From positions 10,782,976-10,846,975 of the forward strand of contig NC_049995.1 in the NCBI RefSeq assembly GCF_000003815.2: 64,000 nucleotides of DNA, written 5' to 3'. The notes under the pieces were generated by a model, which worked only from the letters and a program-made list of their open reading frames with translations, was not told the DNA's origin and did not search any database. Position 1 is the stretch's first letter. Each line of letters begins with the position of its first letter. A program made the translations under genes and the position numbers. This document shows, piece by piece, positions 42,497 to 63,465 of the stretch. This DNA is from Branchiostoma floridae (lineage: Eukaryota; Chordata; Leptocardii; Amphioxiformes; Branchiostomatidae).

Positions 42497-44992
42497 CTGT
42501 AGTTGAGACAGAAAGAGAGCCAGTTTTCATATTGTATTTATCTTCAGCTCTCTACTTTGCGTTTCACCTTTGTAAGTTGCAAAGCGCTCTTGCAAATAAT
42601 TGCTTTGTTTCAACCCAACCTGTTGGTCCGTTACCTTCGTCATGGCAATACTGGATGCTCCTCCCCATCCTCGTGAGGGTTCTAAATCCAACTGCAGAGA
42701 AAAATTCCGAGAAAAGTCTTGCTAAAGAAGCGTGCAGTTCAAGAGCTAACAAGTTCTGATTGTGGAGCAGATGTTGCATCCCAAATAGGTCGTCATCGCA
42801 AAGTAGGCCATGAGTCCAACATGGGATGTCCCGGAAAGGTCGCAGGCAGAACTATCTGCCTGTGATTTCCAAAACAGCTATTCAGCAGGACCCATCCAGG
42901 ATTAACAACGGTGTCTATCCGAACATGTACTTGGAGGAGGAGTTTGATTTTCGAAAGATTATTGTAAACCTACTTTCTCTTGTTGTCGGACTCCACAGCG
43001 CAGACACTTCAGCCAACTGTTGGGCAGGAAGCAAAACAGCGCCTCGCAAATCGGGATGGTCAGTTTGGGGTCAAGTTCCTCTGGCTTCTGTGGTCCTGCA
43101 AAATATGAACGACACTCAAGAAAATCAATGCAAAGCAAGTTACATATAAAGTACAGCTCTTTTTTTTCATTAGAAAAAAAGTTGAAAATCAATGAATGCA
43201 TCAAATGAAAATGCATATCAAGCAGTCCAAGTTTTATGTCAATAAAAAATGTTTAAACTATTCATCGTGCTATCATCACTTATCATTACTGCCACTGCTC
43301 ATCATCATAGTCAACATTATCATTATCAAATCATCCAAAGATATGCATTATGCAATGGTTGCTCCAATGTTTGATACTCAAAATCATACTGATTATGGTA
43401 GAAGTATCCTTAGTCATAATATTGATTTAGATATGGTAGTTTTGCTCAAAGACACAGCTCATGTAATCTTTTTTAAAGTTTTGACTTTCATCACCTGTGA
43501 CGAGACTGACCAGAAGACCAACGACGATACAGACGACAGTTGCGAAGGCTCCCAGTAATGTGTAGGACAACTCGTAAAACACTGCTTCGGGTGGGCTGCA
43601 AAAAAAATTCAGTACTTTGAAGTCTTTAGGGCGCCATTCACTTAGTAAACCCGTGCCAAAGAAAGGCACGGACATTTTTAATCTACTTGATAAAAGCCTT
43701 CAGCTAGTTTAGTTGGGCAGCCCTGGCTGTATTTCATTTCATAGAACCGAATACGTGAAATAAAATAAAATCTACTTATGTCATGTCCCGACTTCATATA
43801 TACTTTCTTACGCCAATACATTTTAGCTCTATACAAAAGAGTGATTGTATCACACCACAGAAACGCTAAGCGAGCCCTTACACAATCATGTCAATCCGCC
43901 ATTACACCCATATTCATGTAATGATAAGTCTTGGAATAGACTAGAGTAACTGTATTACTGCTTTGATATTGTTGCCATACATGTGTACAACTGTCTTCGC
44001 TTTTGTCACGAATTTGAATGCTTTGTTTTGCAAAAGAAGCACATGGCTAGCAGTAATGTATTAATATCTATGCTACTGACCCAAATTTTGTAACTGTTAC
44101 TGTAGGTGTCACTTTCGCCAAACACGACTTCAAAATCGCAACACAATAAAAGTGATAAAGATGCTCACTAGCCATTGTCAGTGGGTCCGGCCATAGAGGT
44201 GACGTCATAGAGTGCGGTTGTCATGGCTGCCGTGGTGAAGTTTGCTGTGACGTTGGCCGAGGGACAGCCCTCGGTGGACACGGGTGGCATCCAGCGGGCC
44301 CTCGGCCACACGATCCCGCCCATCCCGACCCATAGGGTCATGGCAAGGCTGGTCAGAAGGCCTACCAACCCTCCCTGTGTTAGAATATACAATGTAGTGT
44401 TGCGAGCAACTCTGTTAACGGACTTGAAAGGCATATAAAAGGTGGTGTCTCGCTGCACTTGGGGCACTGGTGCTGCACTGCGGGGTTCGAAGATTACTCA
44501 ATGAAATTAAGAGATAAAGAACGAATTTTCTTGCGTTTTGTGTATTTTGTTGTCTTCTAAGTCTTCTTACGTATTACGCAATATCTGAATTATACAACAT
44601 CGGCGAAAATAACACAAGTGCCGCAGTAAAAGAACACCGCTGTGCCGCACTGGTGCCTTTAAATGCACACATACATGCATACATGTACAATGAATGAAGT
44701 CCTTTATTGTATATTTCTGAGCAAAGTACAGGTTACAACAAAGACAAAGCATATATGTAGAATCATAATTCTAGTATAGAAGTTTGGCATCTTCTCGCTT
44801 CATGGTAATATGGTGCAAATGTAGGACTATATGGGTTTAGCAATAATATTGTTGGTTTGTCAAAACGTATGAGAAATACATGTTTTTTCAATGCTACTCA
44901 TATATGAACACAGACACGTATAAACGTTCACACACACACAAACAAACAAACAAAGAGAGAGACACAGAGAGAGAGAAAGAAAGGCCGGAAGA

Positions 44993-45032
<40 letters not shown>

Positions 45033-48000
45033 CGTCAACTGAAAAAGGTAGTAAACCAAAACTAAACGTTAACGTACCCATTTGTTAGCGCACGGGAAGA
45101 ACATCCCCAGGGTGAAGATGCCGAATATGGGCCCTCCCACCATGCCGAATATACTGAGAGACGCCTGAACCACCGGACCCATCAGGGACGCGATGTACGA
45201 CATCATGATCATGGAGCAGCCGAACAACATCGCTGAAACAATCAATCATTTCCCAAAATAATTTCATTGGTAGAGTATAGTATATAGGTGAATTCTTTTA
45301 CACAGCCAGTATGTTCTTACTTTGCTTACGTTTTACGACGAGGGGGGGATGCAAGTTTAGCCAAGTTTGGGATTGTGCAGAACAGAGGTTAGAAGCTCTG
45401 AGTAAGGTGTCTGAGAGACGTCTAAACGTAAGCAAAGTGAGTACTTACTGGTTGTGTAAAAGAATGATCTATCCAATCAATTAATCTTTATTGCACAACA
45501 ACTGCAAGGGGTACAATACTAGTATATGGCAAGTTCTAGTGCAGTACATGTATAAGAAATCAAGTCTACGCAATAGCTTATTACAATAGTAAAGAGCTAT
45601 ATATAACCAAAGACGGTGTGCTTCTAACTTATACTTTTAATACGTTGGACTACAATCCAAGTTGTTCAAACGTGTATTTCTGCCACTTTCTAACTTTACA
45701 TCCGGTTTGTATTACAGTAAGTTTTATGTGAACTCTGTGTTTATTTCATTTGTTTGTTTGAATATTTTATCCTTTTTCGGTCTGTTTGGTAGAAACCCAC
45801 AGTTATGTGATTATTGCACAGTGGATCGGAAGTTTGTCATGATATCAGAAGGAAATTGTGTAGTAAGATACTTGAAGAATTGGAAGGCTTAGTCTGATTT
45901 GGCTCCGTCCCAATATTGTAGACAGTCAGGAAGTGATCATGCGCATGGGCCGATGATACTCGCCTCTGTGCTAGACCTACACAAGCACTAGTATGTACCA
46001 GGTCGCTAGGGTTACCAATTTAGATCTTGTTGTTGTTGTTGTTGTTTGTATGTATCATACCCTGTATCCATTGAATGTCATAACTTACCAAGACCCTTAG
46101 ATATCCAGGTGTACTTGAGATCGGTGAGGTTGGGGAAGCAGGGCTTGACGAAGTCCTCCAGCGCCACGGCGGCGAGCGCGTTCAGGCCCGAGGACATGGT
46201 GCTGAGCGCCCCGCTGAACACACAGGCCGTGAAGAGACCGGGCATACCGGGAAACTTACCCAGGATGTCCATCACAAAGTACGGCATCATCTGTGAAACA
46301 CATAATTATTGAGATAGGCTCGTAGCTTCAATGCCTTTTATATAGTACAATGCTAAACTTTCTTCCAACACAAAAGTGTATACAAATTTTCAACGACTAC
46401 TTCAGGATCAATACTGATAACCAATCACTTCAATCCTAAACTCACAAGGGTTACAGACACGTGATCTTATCAACACTGGACTTGTGACGCCATAATTTGG
46501 TCAAACGTGCCAGGATGTTTATAACTCCCACCGTACCCGTCTCTGTTCTGTTAGAATAGAGATTGCGATCTGGCAGAATCGGCCAGTCGAATTTATCGAA
46601 TAAACCTGTACTCCTACGTTTACCATCAAGTATTGACACATCACCAAGTTATTGCGTTTTGTTTGTCTCAAAGAAACAAGCCTTATCTTGTTTGTGTGAT
46701 GCATACACACATATTTATTGACTGTGTGTTTTGAAGGCAGGGCCAACCCCTTAAGTAGTATGCACTACACTACAATTGGATTCTTCTGATAAGATTGTGA
46801 ATGCTCTACTTTACCTGGTCCGAGTTGTCTATGTAGCCCATTAGCTTGGGGTCGCAGTCGTGGTACCGTGCGTACATCACCAGTCCGCTCACACAGGCGA
46901 AGGACACCAGGATCGACAGTCCCGGGATGTTCCACAAGATGGCGCTGTTACACGTGGAACAAAACGTTCACAAGTATAACTATCAAGTTTAACGCACAAA
47001 CGTAAAATATGTGAACTTGAATTACACTTTAATCACCTTTGAAACTCTCCCACGTAATGTAATTACTCAATTACACCTATCTGATTCTCATTCTGATTCT
47101 GTATGCCAAAGTAAAAACTTTCGCTGTTTTGTGACCTTGTGGACTCTGTTACCAGATTGTTCTCCCAATTGTCATCTTCGTTTAATGCCACCCGTGTCAA
47201 AATTGACTAATGTAAGGACTCACATCTGCGCCTTCTTGACGGAAGGACAGCTGAGGTACCGCTGCACCTGTGCCTGGTTCACCCCGTACACAGCCAGCCA
47301 GATGAACGTTCCTCCCACCACCACGTTCCAGGACGAGTGGCGGATCCGCGGGTCGGGGTCAAAACTGGAAACAGAATCTAAGAATGAATCTTCAGGCAGG
47401 TTTTGGGGCAATCTAGCATTTTGGTCTCGATCCGAACAAAATAATTTCCATAGAGAGATGAAAGAGGTAATCTACATTATAAAGCTCATCAACCATCCCG
47501 AGACGGGGGCCGATACCAACTACCGGGCACCTTTGACCCGTTGCTGACGTCACGCTTCATGCTACCCCAAGCGTTTATGTGTTGGTAGAAATCAGTATGA
47601 ACACTGATTTTAACATGAAGGATGTTTTTTTTTTCTTACTTGATTGTTTGACAAGAGCAGTGAGGCAATCAGAGAATCTGCCTTACCTTAAATTCATGAT
47701 TTAACATTTAGGCAATTCTATGATTGATTGACTGGCTAGCTACAGTACATGCTCATTAAAGTTGAAACTTCAGCCCGGTTTCGATGAGCCTCGTGTATAT
47801 TGGAAAGAGTTTCTTAGATGACGAAAAAAACATCTTTCCATTGCTACGGGCTTGTTAGCACATCTGCATATGATCCACGACCTCCTACTACCGTCTCCGG
47901 TGACGGTTTGTCTTTAGACACAGAACCGCACGTCGGTTTGTGAAAATACCGCCATACGACCCTTGTTAGACAATCGACGGTTAAACGTCATGCTGGTTAA

Positions 48001-50923
48001 AGCGTGGAGGGTGTAAATCGACCCTTACTTGAAGAACTCCAGTCTCTGTCCCTGCTGGTTGAGTTCCCAGACTCGCGCCAGTCCTCCCACATCCATGGTC
48101 CCCTGGATAATGACGGCGAGAAACCCCGCCACCATCACTACCACCTGGAACGTGTCGGTCCACATCACAGCCTTCATACCGCCCTGGAAAGGAGAAATCA
48201 AGAAATTGAAGATCTTATATCTACGTGAACTATTCTTAGTTTTGATCCATTTTCTTTTTTTATTCATTAGTGGGCATTTCTTGCTGATCTTGTATAATAC
48301 ATTTCCCACTTCCTCTTAAGACTAATAAGGCAATAAACTTATGCAGAAGTAGCCTGGGTACCATCCGGAAAGTACCTTGCTCCGGCGTTAATTATACACT
48401 ATATACAGTCGCTTCTGCTCTGACATTGAGCAAATGAGCGAACTACCACCCGGATTGAACCCAGGCTAATGCAGAAGTTGAAGACAGGAAATGAGATAAC
48501 ACATATTCTGGGATCTTTCTGGAACCTTTGACCTAACTTCCTGTCAGTCTTACCGACATAAGTAGCATATGTAAAAAAAAACAGCTACTCTACTCTATTC
48601 AAGTAGCCACGTAGATGCCCTGTTGAGTAGTCGTATATATGTCTTTGTTCTGTCGAAGTCTGCTTGAAAATTCAGACCGGAGCAAAAATCTCATGACGAC
48701 ATACGACGAAAATGACGTTTGCACAACTCACAAGTGTTGTGTAAAAGGTGCAGACCACGCCCACAGCCACCACCGCGCCCCACAGCGTCAAGCCAGTTAC
48801 TACAATTTTAAAACAGAAACAACACATTCATAATAAACTGATACAACCTATATTTCTCCCACTTCATAGTATTACGTAATTTGAAGTAAAACAAACAAAC
48901 TCTGTTCCCAATGTCAAAGTAATGAGTTTATTATACAAACCTTTGATTGTAAAATATATCATACTGTTCCTATGTAATTATACCTTTCACCTCACAATGA
49001 AGCGACGGAAAGTCAAATGAACTTAGTAGAATATAACGTTAATTCATGTTTTCAATTTTATGTCTGCACAAGTTCAAAAGCATATCTTTAAACACCAAGT
49101 AGTTGCTATCTTTCGTTCTTGTACACTCACCTGCATTAAGAGCCAGAGAAGGCACATACAGTACAAGTCCCATGTACAGGAGCTGGGGTAGGAAAGAAAA
49201 ATGCTGAATCAGACTTGTTCAACCACTTTTAAATTGTTTCACTTTAATTAAAATTGAAAATGAGAACTATGAACTGAGACGAGTCTTGATATGGAAATGA
49301 AAACTCACCATATTGGCCATGAAGAGGACCGTGCAGACCAAACGTACAATTTTGGAGAATCGTATCTCCAGATACTGTAAAACGAAGAAAAACGTGTATT
49401 ATGTATTAAAGTAATTTATTTCTAGTTTCTATAAACATATAGCATGTCTACATCATTGACTGTCGCCACAATAGGGATGGAAGGGGGAACTACATGATAT
49501 GATGGCTTTGAGGTACTAGTCGTGCTATCAGCACTTTTGAAACTCCACTGGTGACACTTTGACACAAAGATCTTCATTTTTGGCGACGCCACAGGGGCAA
49601 GCCTTATAGTAGGGCCCGATTTGAACATTATAAGGAATGTACCCTTGGCAAGAATTTTACAAATACATTCCATATGGGATTCTTTTCCTCTACCTTATAG
49701 CTCATAAGAAATTCGCTATTTCAGGTATGGTAATATATATTAGACACAAACGATCGCCATTTTTGGCGACGCCACAGGGGTGAGCCGTCTTTATAGTAGG
49801 GCCTGGTTTGGTTTGAACGTTATATTTATAATAAGGAATGCACCCATGGCAAGAATTTTACACAATACATTCTCCGTGGAATTCATTATCTCTGCCTTAT
49901 AACGAATAAGAACTTCGCTACTTCGGGTATGGGAATATATATTCTACAATCTTGGTCAATTTTCACATACATATGGTTGAACGAACCTCATATGTGCTGG
50001 TGAGTCCCAGCCTGTAGAAGGTCGGGATGAAGAGCCTCGCCACCAGCAGTATGGTGATGGTGTAGGCGACCACGTAATTCCAGAACATGGTGCCGTTAGA
50101 GTAGATCTCCGCGGGGGTTCCCAACACGGTGATGGCAGAGATGAAGGAAGCCAGCAGAGACATGGCCACTGGTACTACTGACATGGACTTAAAGGTACAC
50201 TATGTAAGATCGTGGCCACCGGTACTACAGACATGGACTTAAAGGTAGACTATGTAAGATTATGGCCACCGGTACTACTAACATGGACTTAAAGGTACAT
50301 TATGTAAGAATATGGTTCCCGGTACTACTGACATGGACTTAAAGGTACACTATGTAAGAATATGGTTCCCGGTACTACTGACATGGACTTAAAGGTACAC
50401 TATGTAAGATTACGGTTTTTCATAAATAACCAATAACAACTATCTGCCCACTTTTTCATACTGGCTCTGCTCCCTTCTTTACAATTAGCATTTCAACCTA
50501 TGAAAGCCTCAGACACTTAATGGTTCTACTCTATGGGAGAGTGGCTGGTCAAATCCGTCAAATATTTGCATTTTCATGTTTTTATTTGTCCATCTCTACG
50601 TTCTGAGGGAGGTTGACGGGGCAATCAAATCGGTCTTTTGGAACCAATTTTCATTGCCAGGTGAAACTGCAATGGGAAAGATGCGGCCACATACGTGACT
50701 AAGCCTCTACCCCCCCCCCCCATCACGACTGAAATGACGTCATATAAATCAACTTCCTGTAACATTTTCCTACCTTGTCAGCCATGAGGAATTCCTTCTG
50801 CGTGCGCTGCCGTCCCCCCGTGCATGCGTAGTACAGTCCAATACTAGCCGACACACACAGCATGACTCCGAACACGACATAGTCCCACACACCGAAGTAG
50901 CGAGTCTCCAGATCGTTGTCCAT
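42347..50923 (-). CDS. SLC5A8-like: Sodium-coupled solute transporter, SLC5A8/SLC5A12/SLC5A6-like, 14 exons
   Basis: Fourteen exons on the minus strand join with matching phases into one ~632-residue frame, close to vertebrate SLC5A8 (about 610). Coordinates: 50774-50923, 49987-50187, 49309-49374, 49131-49182, 48732-48799, 48029-48183, 47224-47364, 46815-46944, 46089-46290, 45078-45232, 44169-44374, 43495-43595, 42974-43095, 42347-42496. Family features run in the expected order: an N-terminus with VWDYVVFG, a first core helix with [16 protein letters not shown], the [13 protein letters not shown] loop, the [13 protein letters not shown] segment, the [15 protein letters not shown] helix with the Na2-site-type Ser/Thr cluster, and SIFGMVGG followed by FTLGMFFP. 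The family is a plasma-membrane symporter using the Na+ gradient to import short monocarboxylates (SLC5A8/12) or biotin and pantothenate (SLC5A6). I cannot decide the substrate from sequence. The start is the Met at 50923, which opens the family-like N-terminus. The protein ends Thr-Phe-Leu, a class I PDZ ligand. Confidence 0.9.
42974..43095 (-). CDS. SLC5A-like exon 13 (cytoplasmic tail)
   Basis: Completes a Gly codon and reads [20 protein letters not shown] then [21 protein letters not shown] donor AAA|GTAGGT at 42972-42973 ends it in phase 0. Without splicing, translation adds only four codons (VGLQ) before TAA at 42959-42961, so an intron-retained form would give a shorter tail. Confidence 0.75.
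43495..43595 (-). CDS. SLC5A-like exon 12 (last membrane segment)
   Basis: After TTTGCAG it completes a Tyr codon, then [20 protein letters not shown] and [14 protein letters not shown], ending in phase 1 at ACAG|GTGATG. The ELSY then G(L)LVSLVTG pattern is the family's final helix. Confidence 0.85.
44169..44374 (-). CDS. SLC5A-like exon 11
   Basis: Starts [20 protein letters not shown] after ACACAG. It includes an extracellular loop with two sequons (NVT, NFT) and ends in phase 2 at GGCTA|GTGAG. Reading through the donor meets an in-frame TAG at once, so splicing is required to continue. Confidence 0.85.
44434..44662. mobile_element. TTAA-type MITE copy in SLC5A-like intron 10
   Basis: Left end AAAGGTGGTGTCTCGCTGCA and the same core as the other family copies; the right end is shortened, stopping at GCACTGGTGCCTTTAA. 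It sits 60 bases upstream (minus sense) of exon 11. Confidence 0.75.
44955..45030. repeat. GA microsatellite in SLC5A-like intron 10
   Basis: Runs of GA/GAGA with a few interruptions. The longest pure stretch lies around 44996-45026. Confidence 0.9.
45078..45232 (-). CDS. SLC5A-like exon 10
   Basis: Fifty-one codons after a split Ala codon: [18 protein letters not shown], then [20 protein letters not shown] and [13 protein letters not shown], phase 0 at TGG|GTACG. It carries the glycine-rich family signature. Acceptor is TTTCAG at 45233-45234. Confidence 0.9.
45308..45452. mobile_element. ~145-bp inverted-repeat element in SLC5A-like intron 9
   Basis: CTTACTTTGCTTACGTTTTA at the left faces CTAAACGTAAGCAAAGTGAG at the right, giving ~30-base inverted ends. 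Class not identified. Confidence 0.65.
46089..46290 (-). CDS. SLC5A-like exon 9 (Na+-site helix)
   Basis: Starts [20 protein letters not shown] and includes [20 protein letters not shown] then EDFVKP, ending in phase 1 at G|GTAAGT. The STMSSG cluster corresponds to the conserved Ser/Thr residues of the Na2 site in sodium/solute symporters (family knowledge). Confidence 0.92.
46815..46944 (-). CDS. SLC5A-like exon 8
   Basis: Reads [20 protein letters not shown] then [23 protein letters not shown], ending in phase 0 at CAG|GTAAAG. It is the family helix plus the Y...CDP(K)..G.I...DQ extracellular loop. Confidence 0.9.
47224..47364 (-). CDS. SLC5A-like exon 7
   Basis: Begins by completing an Asn codon, then [20 protein letters not shown] and [18 protein letters not shown]. 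It ends in phase 2 at AT|GTGAGT. The [10 protein letters not shown] segment is diagnostic for the group. Confidence 0.9.
48029..48183 (-). CDS. SLC5A-like exon 6
   Basis: Opens [20 protein letters not shown] after TTCCAG and ends in phase 2 at AA|GTAAGG. GGMKAV.WTD.FQ is one of the strongest signatures of the SLC5A6/8/12 group. The tail ([13 protein letters not shown]) is the extracellular loop. Confidence 0.9.
48351..48468. mobile_element. 118-bp MITE with 9-bp target duplication, SLC5A-like intron 5
   Basis: Inverted ends TAGCCTGGGT / ACCCAGGCTA are flanked by identical 9-base direct repeats ATGCAGAAG (48342-48350 and 48469-48477). No coding capacity; a non-autonomous DNA transposon. Confidence 0.8.
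48732..48799 (-). CDS. SLC5A-like exon 5
   Basis: Completes the split Val codon, then reads [20 protein letters not shown] (plus TL) to ACTT|GTGAG, phase 0. The family helix leading into the GG(M/I)KAV loop is recognisable. Confidence 0.85.
49131..49182 (-). CDS. SLC5A-like exon 4
   Basis: Fifty-two nucleotides encoding [17 protein letters not shown], between CCCCAG and GCAG|GTGAGT. It ends in phase 1. It matches the family helix that precedes the VTG turn. Confidence 0.85.
49309..49374 (-). CDS. SLC5A-like exon 3
   Basis: Twenty-two codons, [22 protein letters not shown], between TTACAG and ATG|GTGAG, phase 0 at both ends. YLE.RF..IVR is the family loop joining the second pair of helices. 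Confidence 0.85.
49548..49945. repeat. Tandem duplication, ~190-bp unit, in SLC5A-like intron 2
   Basis: TTTTTGGCGACGCCACAGGG occurs near 49577 and 49760. The following blocks (TATAGTAGGGCC, AAGAATTTTACA, ATACATTC) recur in the same order, so the unit was duplicated head to tail. Confidence 0.8.
49987..50187 (-). CDS. SLC5A-like exon 2
   Basis: Sixty-seven codons beginning [18 protein letters not shown] and ending TSTYE at GAG|GTTCG. It encodes the first core helix, where family members place substrate and Na+ contacts ([16 protein letters not shown]), plus the next helix. There is an NGT sequon. The acceptor is TTTAAG|TCC at 50188-50189. The acceptor and first codons are repeated four more times upstream (50161-50410). 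Confidence 0.9.
50161..50410. repeat. Five-copy 50-bp tandem repeat containing the exon 2 splice acceptor
   Basis: Five units with an exact 50-base period (GGTACTAC at 50171, 50221, 50271, 50321, 50371). The unit nearest the exon overlaps its 5' end. Each unit carries on the minus strand the same CTTTAAG acceptor and the first codons after it. Confidence 0.95.
50774..50923 (-). CDS. SLC5A-like exon 1 (start codon)
   Basis: Fifty codons starting [19 protein letters not shown], ending ...FLMADK at an AAG|GTAGG donor in phase 0. It holds the extracellular N-terminus and first helix ([19 protein letters not shown]). The start was chosen because the family begins its conserved stretch about ten residues after the initiator Met, as here. 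Confidence 0.88.
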
Positions 50924-51186: not shown

Positions 51187-53514
51187 ATCTAATGCCTCAC
51201 TCACACAGTAGGAAAATCGAGTCTGTGAGCTCTAAATCACATTTTCGGCAGCAATACGCCCAGTGTTCTGTCGATCATCGTGCGATTTTTGAGATCGGCC
51301 GATGTTCGCAGATTCCCGTTCAACCGGATGGGGTACATTTTAAGCTGCCCTTTGGCCATTTTTTCAGTATACTTAGTTGACTTTTTGTCGATCAACAAAT
51401 ACGTCAGAAGTCAAGGTGTGACAGGGGCAGTTTGATGACATTTGAAATAGACTTAAATGATAGAAATGACAATGTCCTATTGATTTAACTAGAAATGTGT
51501 TCACAGTATCACTACTTTCATAATGAAGTGGTAACTACAAGTTTTGTCCAAGGGATTGCAAAAGATCAGGATAGTGTTTGCTTGACAAACTTTGTAGCAC
51601 GTATTTATCGTAGATATCGAGCATACTCACAGTGTTTCAACGTCTATACTATAAACTGTCAAATCTGTTCTTATCGCTCAAGTATCTACATTCTACCAGC
51701 CTGGCTTGCAAACTATCATTGTTATATACTTAGTATTACATAATATTAAGTCCAGATCCAGGTAAAAAGAACAGGTAAACGTTTACAAAAGATGAATGTC
51801 TATTAGATATATCAATGTATGACCCGAGGTCCTAAACCTAGCTCGTTATGATTTAACTACGGTACAAACACATTTTGAAGCCAAGTTGTGTAGCATGGAA
51901 ACACTGTGCCAGCATTTGGATGACATATAGGTTAACGGTTCCAAAAAGCTAGGAGCTTACCTGTAGGCTTGAACAGAAAGATCAGCCAGACTCCGGCCCT
52001 CAAGCCTACCTTCACCCTACAACCGGTATTTGTGTGTCACTGTGAACTTTCCAAGGGTCACAGTGTTTGGTAAGTTCTGATAGGGTAAATGACTTTGCAT
52101 AAGGTTAATCATTAAAATTTGTGATGAGGTTCTTTTCACTTGTCACCCGCAGTTTGAGAGCAAAATCAACATGACTTGTACATAAAGGAGGGTATTGTCA
52201 CACAGTGACATAAGACGGTTTGGTGATCTAGTGACAAAAGAAAGAATTAGGTGCTGACAATTCATTTGAGTAACTTCATGGCCTACACTGTAGGCTCAAA
52301 TTAAGTGACAGCTGAGTCATTGGTGACTTTCCATTTTTACAACAATACGATTTTTTGACTGGCCTTGATGACTGGATTAATGGCCCCAGCCGCCTTCCTG
52401 TCTTAATAATATACTGCTGTTGACATTTTGTACCTGATTTGTGGAAACCTCGCAATGGTTACAAAACCAAATATAGTAATTGGCCTTGTTCGTTCAGATC
52501 TGTACATGTAATCCGCATACCATGAAGATCTCTGCTTAATCAGTATCTGTACCCTGGGGACCAGCCAGAATCGGGCAGCTAGGACAGTTTATTCGGTGGC
52601 CCAAGACAGTCAGGCCCGCCGATCTCCTATTAGCGCTCCGGGGAGTTTTCCAAGGGTATAACTGTTACATAAGCTATACAATGTCATAAACAAAACGTGC
52701 TGCACGAAAATACATTCTCTTCTATTCTTATTGAGACCAACCCAAATTACTTCCATAACGCTAAGTCAAGAAGAGACTGAATCCAGTTATAGGTTAGAAT
52801 CCTAGAGTTTCATCATTTTATATGTGGTATTTCATTACTGATAGCTCACATGACATCCTATAGTAAGTCACATAATTTGTCACAAAATCTTCATTATGAC
52901 CTTCCTTTCTTTAATATGTCATCACACTCACTATCATGGTTATATTATTTAACAAATTTAATAAGCATGTATTTCTCTTTCAGATACTTTATGATTGACT
53001 CATACATTCCAGTTACATCATGCAAAATGCAGAAACGTAAAAATAACTGAGATACTTGGCCCTCTGTTGAGTGTGTACTCTAGTCTAAAGTATGCTGAAT
53101 TGCACTGAATATGAGTGACAATTATTCTTAAAACATTAGGATTGAGTGTTTCATTGACTAGCATCACAATCTTCATACCATGTAAAGAGAATACAACCTA
53201 GAATTTCGATCAATTGATAATCCACTATGAACTTTGCTGAATCCTTAGTACCCAAGTGCAAAATTTAATTACAATATACCACAGAATATGTGAAAATGTT
53301 GTATAAAAAGTGATGACATCATCTTACTACTTACCAAACACAAATTGTGATGATAAGCAAAACCAGCAATGTCCAAACTAGATACACTATACTAACAAAG
53401 CAATGGAATGCTAATCATCCTACTGAATGTCAATCCCAGTTATATAAAAGAGCTTGTTGTGAAAACTATCCATTGATACCTACTGCCAATATTACAGAGT
53501 TTTATTTCATATAC
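51187..53514. other. Intergenic stretch upstream of the SLC5A-like gene
   Basis: AT-rich unique-looking sequence with no convincing exon, RNA gene or tandem repeat. Confidence 0.5.
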
Positions 53515-54426: not shown

Positions 54427-54734
54427 TTAAATCCAGTCCATCAATAGAGGTTGCTCATAGCAAAGGTGGTGGTACTTGTCTGGTCCAATCCCCACCTGGT
54501 GCAGAACTTGACACAGCCTGAATGCTGTAGCTTCATGACCAGACTTCTTTTGCCACTGGAACAGCATGGCGTCAATCTGTTCAAATGTATTACCTGGGTA
54601 TTTCTTTTGCAAGTCTTCCATATCCTGCTTCAAGAAACCCAGTGCTTCTACTACACGGGACGCATAAGGGTCTGACGTCAGGTTCAGGGCAAGCCTTTTC
54701 AACTCAGTCTGTGTTGATAGCCGTGCTGTTGTGT
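54427..54734 (-). CDS. Death-domain exon L (terminal exon)
   Basis: 102 codons plus TAA: TELKRLALNLTSDPYASRVV, EALGFLKQDMEDLQKKYPGN, MLFQWQKKSGHEATAFRLCQ, ending LCYEQPLLMDWI. Acceptor TTACAG. The D.YH.L end parallels the D.Y.F...G end of exons I-K, so this is the last module of the same array. No AATAAA was seen on this strand within about 500 bases downstream. Confidence 0.83.
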
Positions 54735-57700
54735 CTGTAAAACATCAGACAAGTGTAAATAGTGACAAGTGGATGTTGTCAAAGATTTTGTCCATAATTC
54801 GTCAATCATATCTGTGTAACATAGTTGTTGGAGATCAGTGCCTGTACGTATTCTATGACTATGAGATTATAATGTCAATATTTTTGTGTTATAACTTTCA
54901 TGTTAGAACTATACCAGCATAAGTTGAAAACATAGCTGTCACTGGCAGTGGAGGATTGCAAAAATGACAGGTATGCATTGTGGTCACCGTTTAATCTAGT
55001 TAAGAATCAAGGTGGCTAGAATCAACATCGTGGAGGTATGATTTTTTATGGTTCAGTGTTCACTATATTCACTGTATCCTCTTTGTAACTAGTTATTAAT
55101 GTTTTCACAAGTAGGTTATCATATAGGGCAGTCTCTTTTTGCATTAAAGCCATACAATGTACTTTGAATATGGTGTAAAATTGCTGAGCAATAAAGTTCA
55201 TAATATTATTATATCTGATATATTACTATCTATTAGATAGAGTGGCACGCATCTATTAGTAAGAGACTCACCAAAAATGAAGCGATAGTTGTCCACAGTA
55301 ACACCTTCATGGTAAAGACTTTCACACAGTTTGCCAATGGAAGCCTGATTGCCAGACTTGTCGAGCCAAAGTAGTAGCATGGCAGCCTTCTTGGCATGTT
55401 CATCTCGCTTGAACCTGTGGTAACAGGCCTGCACCTCAGCCTTTGTCAGCCCCAGTCGGAGACAAACAGCCTCACAAAGTCGCCTCTCCAGCTTGTTAGC
55501 AAGAGTTCCCAGCTGCCACACACTCACAAGTGATTCTGGTGAAACTAAAGAAAATGGACAGTTTCAGTACATTTTATCCTGAATTATCATATAGCCAGGC
55601 GATGCTGACCAATCAGAAGGACCCAATGTCGTGATGCCTTATGATACCATATACACTTTGGCGTGAGTCATTAACCCTTCTTTTAAGAACCAAAGAATAA
55701 CCTGCCATGGTTGTTACAATGCAACTGAAAGACTGATCACTGACAGGTTAAATGAAACAATACATATTACAAACAGCTCTATAGACAATGGTGACACAAT
55801 ATTTCATGCACCAAGCTGCTTGAATCACTGCATCAAATTTTCCCTAAAGGTTGACTGTCTGTAGGGGCAATGGTTATAATTATGGTTATACATGTAAGCA
55901 TACAAACATGCCTACAGATAGTAAACATTACAGAAATATAGTCCTCTTCATTTTGAAAACCATTAGAACTCACCATGTATGAAGCAGTATTTGTCCACAG
56001 GTACACCCTCCTGATAGAGACCCTCACACAGCTTGTCCAATGTAGCCATCTCACCGGCCTTTTTGTGCCACTTGAGGAGCATGGCAGCCTTCTGGGCTTG
56101 TTCATCTTTTGGGTACATCTTCAGACATGTCTCTGTTTCTTCTTCTGTTACTCCTAGCCTGAGACTCACATCCTTACATGTCTGCTTGCTGAGGTTGTTG
56201 GCAAGCATTTCCAACTGCCACCTACTGGTCACAGGTATGAATGTGTCTGGAAGAATATGCAGAATAACACGACTAATTTTTCTTTGCTTCCTCAATATAT
56301 TATTAACAATGTGCACTTTTGACATCATGATATTATTTTTTAAGTTTTGTGTAATGAATCTAGGGCCTGTTTGACATCATTTAACACTGGCTTGATTATG
56401 GATTCCATTTAAAAAAACAAACAGGTAAGTTACCAAAATTTTTAGCGCACATTTTCAGTCAATCTGTCAATGATGTTTTACAAATTCCCGTGCAGTTATC
56501 CAGCACGTGTGATGATGGGCTGTGCAGTAATGCTATTAGTCACTAAACAATGGAGTGAATAGGAACACTGGCTTGGGATTTGGGATTCCTGCAATTGATC
56601 GAAGTGTGCATTGTGCAATTAACTGGCTTCTAGTGGATCACTCACCCACGAGGAAGTGATACTTGTCCATTGGTACTTTCTGATGATGAAGACTTTCACA
56701 CAAAGCATCCAGTGTGGCCTGGTCCCCTGCCTTTTCCAGCCACTTCAGAAGTATGGCAACCCTCTGGGCATGTTCGTCTAGTCTGTAGCTCTCTCTGCAG
56801 ATTTCCAATTCTTCTCTCATAAGTTCGAGCTGGAGACACACAGACTCACATTCCTCCAAGCTGAGGTTTCCAGCAAGAGTTCCCATTTGATACACACTAG
56901 CAATCTGGGTTGCTGCATTGAAAAGAAAAAGAAACAGACTTGAACCTTTTTCTATACTAATCTGAGTGTGTACTATAAAAAATGAGGTGAGCTCATTCAG
57001 AATCATCTAACTTAAAGATACATGTACAGTACTCTATCCAAATGATAGCAAATTAAAGCAAATTTATTATATAATGATACTACAATCTATCATCTACTCC
57101 ATTCTAAATTATTAAAAGTAACTTAATGGTACTACGCAACTTACTGAATGGAGTGTGCAGATTAAGCATCAGATGCTTGCTTTGAGTTCGGAGAGCTTCA
57201 AACAGATTTTCCATAGTAGCTTCTTCACCAGCTGCGTCCTTCCACATCAAAAGAGCAGCAAATGCCAGACCTGTCGGGCTTGCAGGCTTGGTGTGCATAG
57301 ACTCTTCTACCTCTTTTGTGTTGACACCAAGCTGGATAGCTGTACCTTCCCATTCAGGCCCAAGTCGGTCTGCCACACACAGCAAGTTGTATATGGATGG
57401 GGGCTGCTCTGCAGGGGCTGAATAAATGACAAATTCAGATTAGCTGTTCCAACCACACCTGTAGATATCAGTACTGTACTGTTCAGCATTTGTACTTGTA
57501 ATAATATCTCAACAATTTAGAAGTCCTTGTTGCATTTTGCAAAAGCTTCTGGCAGTGGCATATACATAAAGTTTAAAAGAAAAGAAAAAAATAGCTTCTT
57601 TAATACAAAAAACAATAAGCTTACCTTATTTCAATTGTTCCGAGTACTTCTCTCTTTGACTAATAATGCTAACTACGTAACATGTAACATAATTATGTAT

Positions 57701-60700
57701 CACCTAAAACATTGTATATGGTACTTTAAGTTTACCTTTAATGAATTATCTTATTGAGAATCAAAACAAAAGAATGACAAAGGTTCAGAACTTACTGCCA
57801 AGAAACTTGTATGCTTGTTCTCGTTCAAACGGATCTAAACAGAAAAAAGTGATAAATGTCATTTATGATGTACATCTGTATGTTTGCATGGTTGATATCT
57901 GAAATGAAGACATGAGAATGGCAAGTCTGTACACTCTGCGCTATTATCAAAGATCTCTCCTTTTTTAAATCTCATCATGAGCACAAATGCAATTCATTGC
58001 TGTAACCGTTACAGTACATCTAAAAGTCTTGATGGCTGCCTAATTAACTGGAATCAGGCTCCATAATAATCCGCCAGAAGTGGAAAGACTTTATGAACAG
58101 TCTGACTGCCCCTACGGCCACCGGCTACGGGACTGAATGAATGAGTGAGAGTGATAATCTGAATCTTCTTTAACATATACTAATAGAGTTAACATTTGTC
58201 TGCAAATTGTGTATATTTAAGATAGAGACACATTGAGTAAAATCAAAGCAAACCTTTCAGGAACTGGAAGAGTGTTGTGTCAACATTCCGACTTGTCAGG
58301 CCCTCACACAGTTTGTCCACAGTTGCTTCCACACCATACTTCTCCCTCCAGTTCAACAGTCCAGTTTGGATCTGTTTGAGTTTGCTATCAGGATGAGTTG
58401 TCTTGGCATGACTGATGTCGTCCTGTGTCAAACCCAGTTGTGTAAGCACCTGTTCCCAGTGTCTTACCGACTGTAGCTCGCAGGCAAGGAGACACAACTC
58501 CAAGGCTGATGGCACTGTGGAACAGTCAGAACAGTTAGTTTGAAATTGGGCAATGATATTACCAAATCATTGCCTATTGTATAATGCTTAATTTTCAAAT
58601 GTAATGCTGGCATACTGTTATGTACATGATCTACATGTACATGTATGAAGAGACATGACTGTGTACATCTTCATGATTGTATGTTTCTGTGTGGAATTGT
58701 GTACATGTCATCACAGTGAATTAAAGGAGTCCTAACTCTAGAAGGGAGTGTTACTTTTCAATAGATTAATGTATCAACGAATACACAATCAGCCTAGCTT
58801 TTGCAGGATCTCTCATGTGGCGAAGTACACAATGTATGCAATGTGTGTTTGTACAACAATATGGTACTCACTAAACTCATTCAGACCCTACCCATGTCTA
58901 CCTTAATGATACGTATGTATGTATTAGACACTTGACCTTCATCATGAATATATTTGGCATAAATGAGGGGCGATGTGCACACCAAGAAGGCCAATTGTTC
59001 ATAAAATATAAAAGAATGCATAACAAGACAACTTTTTAACATCACCCCGTTAACATTGGTTTTGTAACCAAACTTTTGTCAGGCCATATCAAACACATTG
59101 TATTCAGCCACAGGCTACAGCTTACAAGTAAGAACTCATCACTATAATTGCTTTTTAAGGCAGCCCTTACCTCTGATGAAGGAGTAGAGATTCACTCCCA
59201 CTTCTGCTGCTTTAAGAGCTGTTGTCAACTTCTTCACAGTAGCCTCAGCCTCGAACTCTTCCATCCATGTCAGCAGCATGTCGTGAACCTGTCCCCACTG
59301 ACTGTCCCTGTTGTCCAGAGCACAGCGGTCAAGCGTGTCCTGGTCCAGCCCCAGCTGCTGACCAACCTGCTCCCACTGGGCACCCAGGTTGCGGCAAAGC
59401 AGAAACAATTCCCTCGTTGTTGGTTGTCGAACTGTTGAGACACATAATATCACACTTTTCTCAGTCAGTATTCAAAACTTCAAATGTTACTCATGGACTT
59501 TGGGAACTTGCAATGATATTATCTGATAACTTCTAAAGCACTCCATTTTATTAGACACATTTCATGTTACTGTCTGTTCTTTTTTTTTTGGGGGGGGGGG
59601 GTATGAGATTTAGGGGTATCATCAATGATCTTCAGACAAAGGAATTTGTAATTGAGTTGGAGCTGGATTTTGCTCTTAAGCCAAATACTGTATATCAATT
59701 TACATGTACATTAGGCCACACTGACGTAATTTTATGGATTACATCCTCTGGAGACCCCCAACCTAATACGTGCAGGCGAAAAACAAAAAAATTCAGCAAA
59801 TAAAAAAAAATACTGCTAAACCACAGGACCACAAAGCTGCCATTATGAATTGAACCACAGAACACACTCAAAAGAAAAGGGTTTAAATGGGGGCACATGT
59901 AGGTTGTATAAATCATCGTAGCAGTCTCGGCTGGAGTAACCGATATTCAATATATTGACAGGAATGATCAAATAAGTACACTATTAGAAGGTATATGGTT
60001 CCAAGGACTGTGAATGATATATGACTGTGATAAGAATAAGTTAAAGGGCAGTCTCAACATACATGGTTTGGAAATCAAACTGACCTCAACTCCTCTCTCG
60101 TTCATTTTTCTCATCGTTCTAGATAGAACGTCTCTCTGAATTCGAAGTTGACTGGGAAAAAATTACTCGCTGGCCGTTGACAGTCTTTCGTACAACTGTG
60201 CAAACGTAACATCCCCTCGACGGTAACCTTTTGACAACATTGCCTTCCTTTGATGCTGACGCATTTTGATGGTGGACATGTGTTTGTCGTATCTTACTAT
60301 ACAAGCAGAGCTTAGGCTCCAGCTGTTTTGACGTTTTTTTAGGCATTCTTATTGGGCATCTTAAAGTTTATTTTGTAATGTTTTCTTCTTGGCTGCGAGA
60401 CATCAAGAAAACAGTATGAAATAGAAAGTCCGATAAAAACTATTAAAAAACGTTAATAAAAACAAACAGCCGGAGCCTAACCTCTGCTTTGGGAGTAGTC
60501 ATATCATGGTCAAATTGCCAGATTTTGAATTTGTGGCAATGCAAGACGCTTGTGCAGAAGCACAATTTACTACAAAATTAGCACGTTTGGGGGAGTTTTA
60601 CAACAAACAGACATATGCAGGCCTTTTGGTTCCACAATTTCCGGACATACATGGAGCCTCGGAGGAGGTGATTTTTTTTAAGAACAGGTGAAAACTGATG

Positions 60701-63465
60701 CGCGCGAGGATGTCATCCATAAAATTAAGTCAGTGTGGCCTTAAAAGAGCAATGCAAGACCAACTACATGTACATGTAGTGCTGTATGAAGGTCATTATC
60801 TATAGCTTACCTGGCTTTGGTGCTGCTTGAAACCAACTGAACACTGAATACAAGGGCGTTTCAGCTTTAGCATCACTGCTCTTTTTCCTAACACGTTGAA
60901 CACTAAGTCTTCTGGTTTGTCCTGCTACTGTTCTAGACCCCTTGCCCTTAGCAGCAGATGAAAGTGACTCATAGCCACTTTCCTTTGCTCCACCACTACT
61001 CCTTGAATAAACTTCAGATAAAGGCACAGTTGCATCATCTTCACCAAGTTCACTGAATTCTGATGGTGTCTCCCATGCCTCTACCCAAGATGATGACAGC
61101 ATCAGCGGCTGTCTTTCTCTTGACTCCAGGCGCCCTAATTTCTCTCTATGCTCCTCCTTCACAAGTTGCCCAATGTTTGGAGCCAGCATATAGGAGAACC
61201 TGGGCAGGGCTGTTGAGGCAAGGTCCAGGGACTGGATAGTGGTGCTCACTCGGTCTCCCAATGCAAGACGAGTCTTCTTAACATGATGGTACAGCTGTCC
61301 AACAAGGCCTGGATTTCAAACAAAATAAAACAAAGAATGAGTCAGAGTTGGCATTCCAAGTCTTGCAAAAATTATCATTAATTGGAAATAGTAAAAAAAT
61401 GAATTATCAAGATTTCTATGTCCTTAGATTTCGAATTTGGATAAAGAGTAATGTTTTTTGTCTTTCTGAGGTTCCATAATTATATAATAGAGACTAGACC
61501 AGAGTGAATGGTAAAAGGCAACTTAATGTAAGATTCAGAGAATTTAAAATCAAGAGAACTGAGATAACAAAACATTGTGTCCATAAGTGAGAGTTAAGAA
61601 CCTTTGACCAATCAGTTTCACACTGAAGAACATTCATTTTTCTTCCCTTTGCTTATTGAAAAGAATGTGATCGTCTTTTCTGTACCTTCACATTGTGTGA
61701 AATCCTGTGCATTCAACTTGCAGATGCGGTACTGTTCCTTCCTGATGAAGCTCTTCAGCTGGACAGCCTTCTTGCAGGAACTTTGTATGAGGGTTTTCTG
61801 AAAAAGCTGGTCTAGTTCACCTGACTGATAACTTTCCCACAATTTCTCCAGGCTAGCTTTTGAAGAGGGAATGAAGCTGAACAGAAGACAGCCTTCCTGT
61901 ACAGACTCGACAGTACCAGAGTACGCAGTCTCTAGCTTCTTGACTGCTGCATCTACATTTATGGCACAGACAGACCCCCCCATTGTCAAAGTCTGTTGAA
62001 GCGACGTGTGCCCCTTACTGCCAAAGGGAACTTTAAGTCTTGCTATTTCTCCTTCCACGTCCACAATGATCTCCAGCTGCCCTAAATAAGGTAAAAAAAA
62101 AATTGGTAGTCAAGAATGTTAATCGTCTTGACTGTCAAAATGTTGAATTGATTGGTTATGCATGTTTGGCTTTTCTGTTGACAGCATTGCACTTTGATTG
62201 CTAGATTTATTTAACTTCGTTTTTTTTATGTTTCTGTACAAATACTACGTATACATGTATAAACATTAATTTGTCAACAGTTATCCAAGAATGAAAAAAA
62301 ATCAATGGAAAGTTTTAACAGTGAAAATTTTGATTTTATTTGGCAGAATCAAAAGATTACATTTTGATAAGATTATATCAACAATCACTGTTCTATTGAT
62401 GATAAAATTGCCTATCTACACTAATATCCACCCTGGCTTGTACAATGTAAAGTATCCATCCAGCTCTAATTTTATTTCATGTATTATGAATCAATGGACC
62501 TAATAAAACTAATTGAAAAAAGAAATGTACATGTACCTGTTTTCTGTCTTTTAGCCAGTGGTGTATCATCCTGGACTTTCAGACCCCTTGTCTGGCGAAG
62601 GCTCGCTACTTCTTGGGGCCTCATACCTAAAAAGAATATCATACAAAAATCAATGCAAATTCTGAAACAACTTATTTGTCAGTGTCTGGAACATTGACAA
62701 TGTGTATAAACTCCAATTTACAATCATGTAGGTAATGCACAACAATATTGGGTCTTTACAGATTCTGTAATGTGAGTATACACTGAGAAACAAAATGTCA
62801 AACCAACACATGTTTTCATTTAATATGTAATATATAAAATGTAATATAATATTACTACTCTACATATGGGACTGCATTGTAAACAGTCTGAATTACTATC
62901 AGTGTATTAATATCGTACTAATCACCTAACGATTGTGACCGTACATGTAAGCAGAGACACCTAATATATTGCTGCAGCACTACATGAAGCCTGGTATCCA
63001 GCCTTATCATAGCTCCAGAGTCTCTTCTGTCGTCTCTGCAAATACTTTATATAGAGAGGACAGAAGAGACTCAGGAGCTATAATACGGCTGGATACCAGG
63101 CTAGGTAGTTTAAGCATAAACAGAGTTTTATGGGTTATGATCTACATAATTTTTTGTTGTCATTGACTATTTATGTACCTGAGTGGCAAAACTTTGAAAA
63201 TATTACATACATGTCTCATCCACTTGGTCTGCAACATTTTGAAACCTGGCTGCGACAAGACCTTCCATCAAGGCAGCAGGTGTAGCTGCTCTCCCATTGT
63301 CCCTCACCCACAGGTTAAGGGCTTGGCGACAGCATTCAGTTGTGTCCCCTCGATGCTCCTTGTCTAAGGCTGCAATATCTGGTTCTGATAATCCTAGCAT
63401 GCGTGAGACTTCCTTCCACTGATGACGTGCATTTCTTACCACAACATTAAAGCATGCTTCAACAG
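54427..63465 (-). CDS. Multi-death-domain protein with TRADD-N-like domain (partial, 5' end off window)
   Basis: Twelve exons on the minus strand: 63211-63465, 62537-62626, 61686-62081, 60811-61308, 59171-59431, 58254-58514, 57796-57834, 57145-57417, 56646-56912, 55974-56246, 55272-55544, 54427-54734. All visible junctions are phase 1, so they join without a frame break into ~1,064 residues ending at TAA. Predicted order: death domain, short basic linker, TRADD-N-like domain, Ser-rich linker, then seven death domains. Each death-domain exon shows a W/E-rich helix 2, L.LG(L/V)...(E/D), and a late LL.W..K.G..AT...LC..L pattern. Death domains form homotypic six-helix assemblies in apoptotic and NF-kB signalling (family knowledge). 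No protease, kinase, TIR, LRR or membrane segment is visible. I infer a cytosolic scaffold with many docking sites. It could be more than one transcript. Confidence 0.8.
55272..55544 (-). CDS. Death-domain exon K
   Basis: Ninety-one codons: VWQLGTLANKLERRLCEAVC, LRLGLTKAEVQACYHRFKRD, MLLLWLDKSGNQASIGKLCE and VTVDNYRFIFG. Acceptor TCTTTAG, donor G|GTGAGT. Same length and boundaries as exon J. Confidence 0.87.
55974..56246 (-). CDS. Death-domain exon J
   Basis: Ninety-one codons: WQLEMLANNLSKQTCKDVSL, RLGVTEEETETCLKMYPKDE, MLLKWHKKAGEMATLDKLCE and VPVDKYCFIHG. Acceptor TTCCAG, donor G|GTGAGT. Closest relatives in the window are exons I and K. Confidence 0.87.
56646..56912 (-). CDS. Death-domain exon I
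   Basis: Eighty-nine codons: YQMGTLAGNLSLEECESVCL, QLELMREELEICRESYRLDE, then ILLKWLEKAGDQATLDALCE and VPMDKYHFLVG at G|GTGAGT. Belongs with exons J and K: shared (E/D)(E)HAQ/KA...LLKW and a V.(V/M)D.Y.F...G ending. Confidence 0.85.
57145..57417 (-). CDS. Death-domain exon H
   Basis: Ninety-one codons: IYNLLCVADRLGPEWEGTAI, QLGVNTKEVEESMHTKP, LLMWKDAAGEEATMENLFEA, ending LNLHTPFS at TTCA|GTAAGT. EWEGTA.QLGV..(K)EV marks helices 2-3. More divergent than the I/J/K group. Confidence 0.82.
57796..57834 (-). CDS. Micro-exon G (13-codon linker)
   Basis: Thirty-nine bases between TGTTTAG and GGCA|GTAAGT, reading DPFEREQAYKFLG with phases 1 and 1. Supported by good splice sites, open frame and matching phase only; it could be skipped without changing frame. 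Confidence 0.5.
58254..58514 (-). CDS. Death-domain exon F
   Basis: Eighty-seven codons: SALELCLLACELQSVRHWEQ, VLTQLGLTQDDISHAK, LLNWREKYGVEATVDKLCEG, ending FQFLKG. Acceptor CCACAG; donor G|GTTTGC. Same length and phase as exon E, its nearest neighbour in the array. Confidence 0.85.
59171..59431 (-). CDS. Death-domain exon E
   Basis: Eighty-seven codons: RELFLLCRNLGAQWEQVGQQ LGLDQDTLDRC..., then LLTWMEEFEAEATVKKLTTA, ending YSFIRG at G|GTAAGG. QWEQVGQQLGL...(T)L is a classic helix 2-3 of a death domain. Phases 1/1. Confidence 0.85.
59714..60740. mobile_element. 1.03-kb DNA element with inverted ends in the intron between exons D and E
   Basis: GGCCACACTGACGTAATTTT at the left faces AAAATTAAGTCAGTGTGGCC at the right; the complementarity runs ~38 bases. 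TTA flanks both sides (59711-59713, 60741-60743), a likely target duplication. Inside are two short unrecognised open frames (60119-60346 minus, 60506-60691 plus) and a nested foldback. Superfamily not assigned. Confidence 0.75.
60302..60492. mobile_element. Foldback/MITE nested in the 1.03-kb element
   Basis: Left end CAAGCAGAGCTTAGGCTCCA pairs with the right end GGAGCCTAACCTCTGCTTTG. The arms are ~45 bases, followed inward by (A/T)-rich sequence. Confidence 0.7.
60811..61308 (-). CDS. Ser-rich linker exon D
   Basis: 166 codons after ATCCAG. The first half is probably helical (QLYHHVKKTRLALGDRVSTT, LVKEEHREKLGRLESRER). The second is low-complexity, with EFSELGEDDATVPLSEVYSR, a GYESLSS patch and a basic stretch TRRLSVQRVRKKSSDAKAE that could act as a nuclear signal or phosphosite cluster. 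It ends CCAG|GTAAGC, phase 1. It separates the TRADD-N-like module from the seven-domain tail. Confidence 0.75.
61686..62081 (-). CDS. TRADD-N-like domain exon C
   Basis: 132 codons starting GQLEIIVDVEGEIARLKVPF and ending CKLNAQDFTQCE at G|GTACAG. The central block GCLLFSFIPSSKASLEKLWE followed by SYQSGELDQLFQKTL and a QLKSFI.KEQYRICK end resembles the TRADD N-terminal fold: a beta strand, a helix with W..Y.SG.L...F, then a strand and a charged helix. In TRADD this domain binds TRAF2; whether the partner is kept is unknown. Identified by pattern memory only. Confidence 0.55.
62537..62626 (-). CDS. Linker exon B
   Basis: Thirty codons: MRPQEVASLRQTRGLKVQDD then TPLAKRQKT, between TTTTAG and ACAG|GTACAT, phases 1 and 1. 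Polar, no domain recognised. Short, so the call rests on splice sites and matching phase. Confidence 0.6.
62988..63103. mobile_element. ~115-bp foldback element in the intron between exons A and B
   Basis: AGCCTGGTATCCAGCC at 62988 faces GGCTGGATACCAGGCT at 63088-63103. Arms are ~50 bases with a short AT-rich centre, so nearly the whole element folds on itself. Confidence 0.8.
63211..63465 (-). CDS. Death-domain exon A (most upstream visible)
   Basis: After TTGCAG it reads (A)VEACFNVVVRNARHQWKEVS..LGLSEPDIAALDKEHRGDT, with ALNLWVRDNGRAATPAALME in helix 5-6. It ends ACA T|GTATGT, phase 1 at both ends. The HQWKEV..(M)LGL and W...G..AT spacing are typical of death domains. It lies N-terminal to the TRADD-N-like exon, away from the other seven. 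Confidence 0.8.

Follow-up and report, generated by a model that had tools for sequence, protein, structure and literature searches.

Death-fold signalling works through the assembly of many single-domain adaptors. A gene that appears to carry eight death domains (DDs) in a single reading frame raises the question of whether one protein chain may take over part of such an assembly, or whether its exons should be read in some other way. The gene lies on the minus strand of a 64,000-nucleotide stretch of the genome of the lancelet Branchiostoma floridae (RefSeq assembly GCF_000003815.2, contig NC_049995.1, here C17, positions 10782976-10846975; hereafter the window), where an earlier interpretation of the letters alone (the sequence-only reading) had described a death-domain gene between 54427 and 63465. 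We modelled this gene, here called the chain gene, exon by exon, searched the 513 Mb genome (431 contigs) for its relatives, and compared its domains with Pfam and the PDB. Coordinates without a contig name are those of the window, counted from its first letter. In our best reading, to which we give a probability of roughly 0.57, this is a single gene for a covalently pre-linked DD platform that would concentrate a CARD partner, probably a caspase.

Death domains and gene model

All eight exons between 54427 and 63465 passed the curated cut-off for the Pfam Death family (PF00531, 22.6 bits), with scores ranging from 23.3 to 42.1 bits. On the minus strand these are DD1 (63211-63465, 38.8 bits), DD2 (59171-59431, 41.1 bits), DD3 (58254-58514, 42.1 bits), DD4 (57145-57417, 30.4 bits), DD5 (56646-56912, 23.3 bits), DD6 (55974-56246, 29.6 bits), DD7 (55272-55544, 27.4 bits) and the terminal DD8 (54427-54734, 28.1 bits), which ends with the stop codon TAA. 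DD2 to DD8 are consecutive, interrupted only by a 39-nt mini-exon (57796-57834). Both counts of the sequence-only reading, eight DD exons and seven in a row, were thus borne out. That reading had also proposed HHpred or structure prediction for every exon; a fold was predicted for one of the eight, DD5, the domain with the lowest Pfam score, whose likeness to RAIDD was judged by this fold. The AlphaFold model of DD5, made with the eight DDs as alignment, had a mean predicted local distance difference test score (pLDDT) of 97.3. Its best fold match in the PDB was the DD of RAIDD (2O71, template modelling score 0.87) and the top 20 matches were all DDs, in agreement with a six-helix death fold for this exon. 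No ninth DD was found among 1410 open frames of at least 35 amino acids across 93.6 kb around the gene, a stretch of N bases at 64001-65251 excepted.

Sequence searches of the PDB gave CRADD/RAIDD as the best match of DD2 (1.3e-8), DD3 (9.9e-10), DD4 (5.5e-7) and DD6 (7.4e-4), while FADD was the best match of DD1 (1.9e-7). A profile built from all eight DDs matched CRADD first (2.7e-16) and PIDD second (2.5e-11). DD2, DD3 and DD4 are clearly RAIDD/CRADD-like, and DD5, by its fold, and DD6, by sequence, weakly so.

The full model on the minus strand comprises 14 exons from 68379 down to 54427, with GT-AG splice sites throughout and a reading frame open from ATG to TAA (1203 amino acids). As a prediction from sequence this gene structure is well supported, and one gene appears to encode an adaptor of about 1203 residues, probably cytosolic, that consists of a CARD, a linker, a FADD-like DD, a basic linker, a TRADD-N-like domain, a further linker and the seven DDs. 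The gene is longer than had been claimed, and neither the CARD exon at its start nor the TRADD-N-like exon nor the likenesses of several DDs to RAIDD and FADD had been noticed. The initial CARD exon (68103-68379; PF00619, 39.2 bits, cut-off 23.9) lies 4.4 kb beyond the window edge, and the linker exon LNK1 (65724-65864), placed by splice sites and frame, is also outside the window. Within it, DD1, the linker exons LNK2 (62537-62626) and LNK3 (60811-61308), the TRADD-N-like exon (61686-62081) and the mini-exon are each in phase 1 at both ends. LNK2 was recognised by its splice sites and open frame and has a basic stretch, KRQK, in its translation. LNK3 was placed by splice sites and frame, and its end, SVFSWFQAAPKP, has a similar counterpart in the paralogue described below. 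The mini-exon, placed by GT-AG sites and frame, is perhaps a remnant of the last helix of a DD; together with LNK1 it is the least certain exon of the model. The first AATAAA 3' of the stop codon (53501-53506, minus strand) is, by motif position only, a possible poly(A) signal. The intron between DD1 and LNK2 contains a near-perfect inverted repeat (62990-63100) resembling a miniature inverted-repeat transposable element.

The TRADD-N-like exon clears the Pfam TRADD-like_N cut-off marginally (24.5 versus 23.7 bits). An hhalign comparison with a profile of 7 TRADD-N exons, picked from 15 loci, gave 80.9% over 56 columns, and 30 shuffles gave at most 3.5%. The fold prediction for this exon was poor (pLDDT 45.9) and unusable. 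No DED was recognised in Pfam scans of the gene's exons. Elsewhere on the same contig (C17:18.30-18.90 Mb), a big array holds about 50 of the 69 genomic TRADD-N matches, several of them with a DD exon just upstream.

A paralogue on the same chromosome

Genome searches with DD6 and DD3 identified a paralogue at C17:7517272-7521568, on the same chromosome at a distance of 3.3 Mb. Its exons, all in phase 1 as read by eye, follow the order of the chain gene: an LNK3-like end, DD2', DD3', a fourth DD, DD5', and DD8' as the last exon, with the stop codon. The LNK3-like end, SVFGWFKSASKP, precedes DD2' (BLAST E 0.012). Three of the five DD-like exons passed the Pfam cut-off, and a profile of the chain gene's DDs scored DD5' at 68.8 bits and DD8' at 55.4 bits. 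In trees, support was 98/98 for DD2 with DD2', 90/92 for DD3 with DD3', 100/100 for DD5, DD6 and DD7 with DD5', and 89/79 for DD8 with DD8'; the pairing of DD4 with the fourth DD of the paralogue was neither supported nor rejected (approximately unbiased test, p-AU 0.196). Since four DDs of the paralogue pair in the same order with those of the chain gene, the chain would be an old unit, and on this phylogenetic evidence a chain with some four or five DDs probably predates the split of the two genes. The array would have arisen by duplication of a symmetrical phase-1 exon, giving the first four or five or so DDs in the common ancestor, and one unit may later have been copied again in the chain gene to yield DD5, DD6 and DD7. 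Recent tandem copying was considered and rejected, as the six introns compared showed no similarity.

Between DD2 (59171-59431) and the paralogue (C17:7520474-7520980), 115 of 118 bases are identical, and the preceding 54 bases match at 35. This tract looks like a candidate for ectopic gene conversion. We also compared nonsynonymous (dN) and synonymous (dS) substitution rates. The values for the pairs among DD5, DD6 and DD7 were 0.42/1.16, 0.44/1.31 and 0.40/1.20 (dN/dS), with dN below dS in each, and the ratios against the paralogue were 0.22 for DD2, 0.13 for DD3, 0.29 for DD5, 0.57 for DD6 with DD5' and 0.51 for DD7 with DD5'. A dN below dS fits repeats that are kept by selection.

Proposed mechanism and alternatives

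RAIDD is described as linking PIDD, through a DD-DD contact, to caspase-2, through a CARD-CARD contact (PMC4332690, PMC3344246). The solved RAIDD-PIDD core is reported to contain seven RAIDD and five PIDD DDs (PMC4332690), with a flexible stoichiometry (PMC4332690, PMC3344246). The linked DDs of the chain gene would form a pre-built platform of high avidity. Within it, each DD would present a surface of its own and fill one place in a DD assembly together with DDs of upstream partners of PIDD, receptor or kinase type, and the CARD at the far end would recruit a CARD-bearing protein, with a caspase as the likeliest candidate, in the way that RAIDD recruits caspase-2. With the units covalently tied, single-DD adaptors would not need to be recruited in large number, and assembly would begin at a lower threshold or have a fixed size. 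A more specific proposal, which we hold to be doubtful, is that the product is a single-chain DD oligomer forming one helical platform, with seven consecutive DDs derived from RAIDD-type exons, their identity and order set by the order of the exons, the CARD as output, and the FADD-like DD and TRADD-N as inputs. We reduced our estimate for this proposal slightly because DD7, searched by itself, matched RIPK1/PIDD and not RAIDD. The solved PIDDosome core also has seven DDs from RAIDD, the same number as the consecutive DDs here, which may be coincidence.

Several observations weigh against a single-gene platform of RAIDD type. With regard to the gene itself, exons 1-5 (CARD to TRADD-N) are joined to the DD chain on splice sites and frame only, and the 1251 N bases at 64001-65251 lie within the gene and could hide an exon. 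At the paralogue, CARD, DD1 and TRADD-N were not detected, and DD5' and DD8' had no Pfam match at E 0.01, being found solely by profiles that include the chain gene's DDs. The dS values are near saturation, 9 of the 28 DD pairs as well as DD8-DD8' were not computable, and for DD1-DD5 dN (1.32) exceeds dS (1.09). With regard to partners, the nearest PDB matches of DD7 were RIPK1 (0.0016) and PIDD (0.0029), with CRADD at only 0.99, and the best natural match of DD8, CRADD, was weak (0.033) and ranked under two designed proteins. The CARD exon matched Apaf-1 (3e-4) slightly better than RAIDD (6e-4), and the closest relatives of this CARD in the genome sit at a CARD-TIR-helicase locus. The PIDD-binding interface of RAIDD is described as including Arg170 (type I) and Gly128 (type III) (PMC6169973). 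Across DD2-DD8 the Arg170 position holds Lys in five of seven domains and Glu or Ala in the other two, Gly128 is retained in DD2 and DD4 only (2/7), and the position of RAIDD Arg147 is Arg in DD2 only. The search for the PIDD peptidase family PF10461 gave no match to the gene, and it gave none anywhere, hence this is no sign of absence.

The alternative that survives best, and which we regard as possible, is that the model joins neighbouring genes: a CARD-DD-TRADD-N gene would be followed downstream by a separate seven-DD gene that starts near LNK3, as the paralogue may. The LNK3-like exon of the paralogue, which has its five DD-like exons and no detectable counterpart of the front part, contains an in-frame ATG, and directly upstream of the paralogue there is a ribosomal protein gene of the L30e family. 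At several other places in the genome, such as loci L036 and L029, a DD exon adjoins a TRADD-N exon. However, the TRADD-N exon and LNK3 fit together in frame, with a phase-1 donor at the end of the former and a phase-1 acceptor at the start of the latter, and neither AATAAA nor ATTAAA occurs on the minus strand from TRADD-N to LNK3.

Because the CRADD matches are strong in DD2-DD4 and weak or lost by DD7 and DD8, the chain is, as judged from sequence, RAIDD-like at its start and diverged toward its end. The idea that all seven consecutive DDs are RAIDD-like was not upheld for DD7, with RIPK1 and PIDD nearest, or for DD8, with its weak match to CRADD. The DD7 result also led us to lower our confidence in a single-gene platform from 0.6 to the value given above. 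Since the RAIDD interface residues differ between the DDs and DD7 is nearest to RIPK1 and PIDD, the comparison suggests that the DDs offer several binding surfaces and not eight equal ones. The assembly that the sequence-only reading had called homotypic is on these grounds questionable. Such differing interfaces and the likeness of DD7 may mean that the DDs are specialised for different positions of a single assembly, or that they have more than one partner, and they also fit a decoy.

In the decoy or sink alternative, which we consider unlikely, the DDs of the chain bind partners without signal transfer and so damp cell death. The diverged interface residues and the loss of the tryptophan at position 131 in DD5-DD8 are in line with this, as is the presence of one CARD per eight DDs, which means few outputs per input. 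Yet the CARD as an output domain is present, every DD exon is open, and dN is below dS both among DD5-7 and for DD2, DD3, DD5, DD6 and DD7 against the paralogue, although a selected decoy would show the same.

Phase-1 symmetry of the exons

All 13 junctions of the 14-exon model are in phase 1 (12 exon starts in the window and one other non-initial exon outside it), in agreement with the claim that every visible junction of the gene has this phase. The internal exons are all symmetrical, and skipping or re-ordering them creates no stop at a junction codon, as read from the exon ends; they can be skipped or added in frame, as had been proposed. The sequence-only reading had missed that phase 1 is general for DD exons in this genome. 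Among the DD exons of 19 other loci in the genome (a twentieth was skipped), 18/18 callable acceptors and 7/9 callable donors were in phase 1, as scored by a crude and uncalibrated phase caller and with several of the loci near-identical. A phase-1 rule peculiar to the chain gene was thus rejected. As phase 1 is usual for DD exons here, it marks a shuffling module and not a trait special to the chain gene, which owes its modularity to a type of DD exon that is widespread; what is new is the number and order of its DDs.

Exon symmetry also bears on the alternative that phase-1 exons are skipped in combinations, giving many short products with one to few DDs each and only rarely the full chain. 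All internal exons are symmetrical and no skip gives a junction stop, as this alternative would have it, but because such symmetry is general to DD exons here it needs no splicing function, and we think it improbable that short products predominate. A decaying or mis-joined array of exon duplicates in place of one working gene is very improbable: a broken copy of the paralogue's last exon does lie beyond its end (7516929, internal stop, beside a gap), but 14/14 exons of the chain gene are open with GT-AG sites, dN/dS is 0.13 to 0.57 among DD5-7 and for DD2, DD3, DD5, DD6 and DD7 against the paralogue, and the order is kept in the paralogue.

Related genes and neighbouring loci

We asked whether the chain gene could be the amphioxus CRADD. 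This was rejected, since a gene at C5:12392885-12394225 (plus strand), in which one DD, split by an intron, comes after a CARD exon (62.6 bits), matches CRADD better; its DD does so at 2.2e-15, more strongly than the DDs of the chain gene. This CRADD gene adjoins, within C5:12392800-12397000 (L070, plus strand), a gene that combines a DED-like exon with a related DD, likewise split; as read by eye, a phase-1 intron interrupts the DD of each gene after helix 1. The neighbour was rejected as a second CRADD and is taken as a DED-DD gene, its Pfam DED score of 35.9 bits being exactly at the cut-off. A locus at C8:12570425-12573010 (L066/L069, minus strand) has a UEV exon (41.6 bits), a charged linker and, downstream, a DD exon; it is a possible UEV-DD gene and was rejected as CRADD, being a distant relative. 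On C4 (C4:23357000-23365500, L068, minus strand), a TIR exon and DEAD-helicase exons come after a CARD exon (46% to the CARD of the chain gene), in what looks like a CARD-TIR-RIG-I-like gene.

CRADD/RAIDD, the CARD-DD adaptor of the PIDDosome, shares with the chain gene an N-terminal CARD and the DD likeness seen in DD2, DD3, DD4 and DD6, but it has one C-terminal DD, whereas the chain gene has eight DDs and a TRADD-N-like domain. FADD is the best match of DD1, yet a DED was not among the domains recognised by Pfam in the chain gene. The DD/DED-TRADD-N proteins described from amphioxus and other marine animals (PMC8195603) likewise place a death-fold domain and TRADD-N before a variable C-terminus, and the DD1-linker-TRADD-N part of the chain gene resembles the constant part of the amphioxus families described there. 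The C-termini reported for those proteins include WD40, GTPase and RNase domains, whereas the chain gene has seven DDs in that place and a CARD in front, and a seven-DD chain is not mentioned in the parts of PMC8195603 available to us. Consecutive DDs within one protein are reported as 'double death domain repeats' in Apaf-1/CED-4 homologues of sea urchin, amphioxus and Nematostella (PMC2246300); these are two DDs on an NB-ARC protein, while in the chain gene there are eight DDs and no ATPase domain was found. Amphioxus is known for its shuffled death-fold genes (PMC2575513, PMC3196919). Among the open-access papers searched, mostly by title and the opening of the abstract, we saw no protein with seven or eight tandem DDs; one may well be on record as a predicted protein. 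By eye, no run of DD exons longer than a pair (spacing below about 4 kb, one strand) was seen in the best 150 of 588 DD candidates, a set that omits the chain gene's own weaker DDs and proves little on rarity. Repeated close pairs of DD exons on one strand were observed at C6:25314425-25422559 and C19:8160583-8164383, the latter with one possible triplet, and both loci are candidates for further multi-DD genes.

Two neighbours lie on the same strand as the chain gene. At 44171-48315 there is an exon matching the sodium:solute symporter family (SSF, 29.1 bits), from what we take to be an SLC5-like gene, and at 70221-77590, outside the window, a gene with TPR that is presumably SMYD4-like.

Implications

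The multivalent death-fold scaffold of the sequence-only reading retains its eight death folds in a phase-1 gene and is now accompanied by a collinear paralogue; we infer that a scaffold is the most likely function. If the single-chain oligomer were true, stoichiometry would be genetically encoded, whereas platforms elsewhere are built from separate molecules with loose stoichiometry. With a natural eight-DD protein one could ask directly if death-fold assemblies have their size, threshold and cooperativity set by covalent linkage, and the paralogue with its five DD-like exons would supply a natural length series. The gene would illustrate how the copying of phase-1 exons gives lancelets new immune adaptors.

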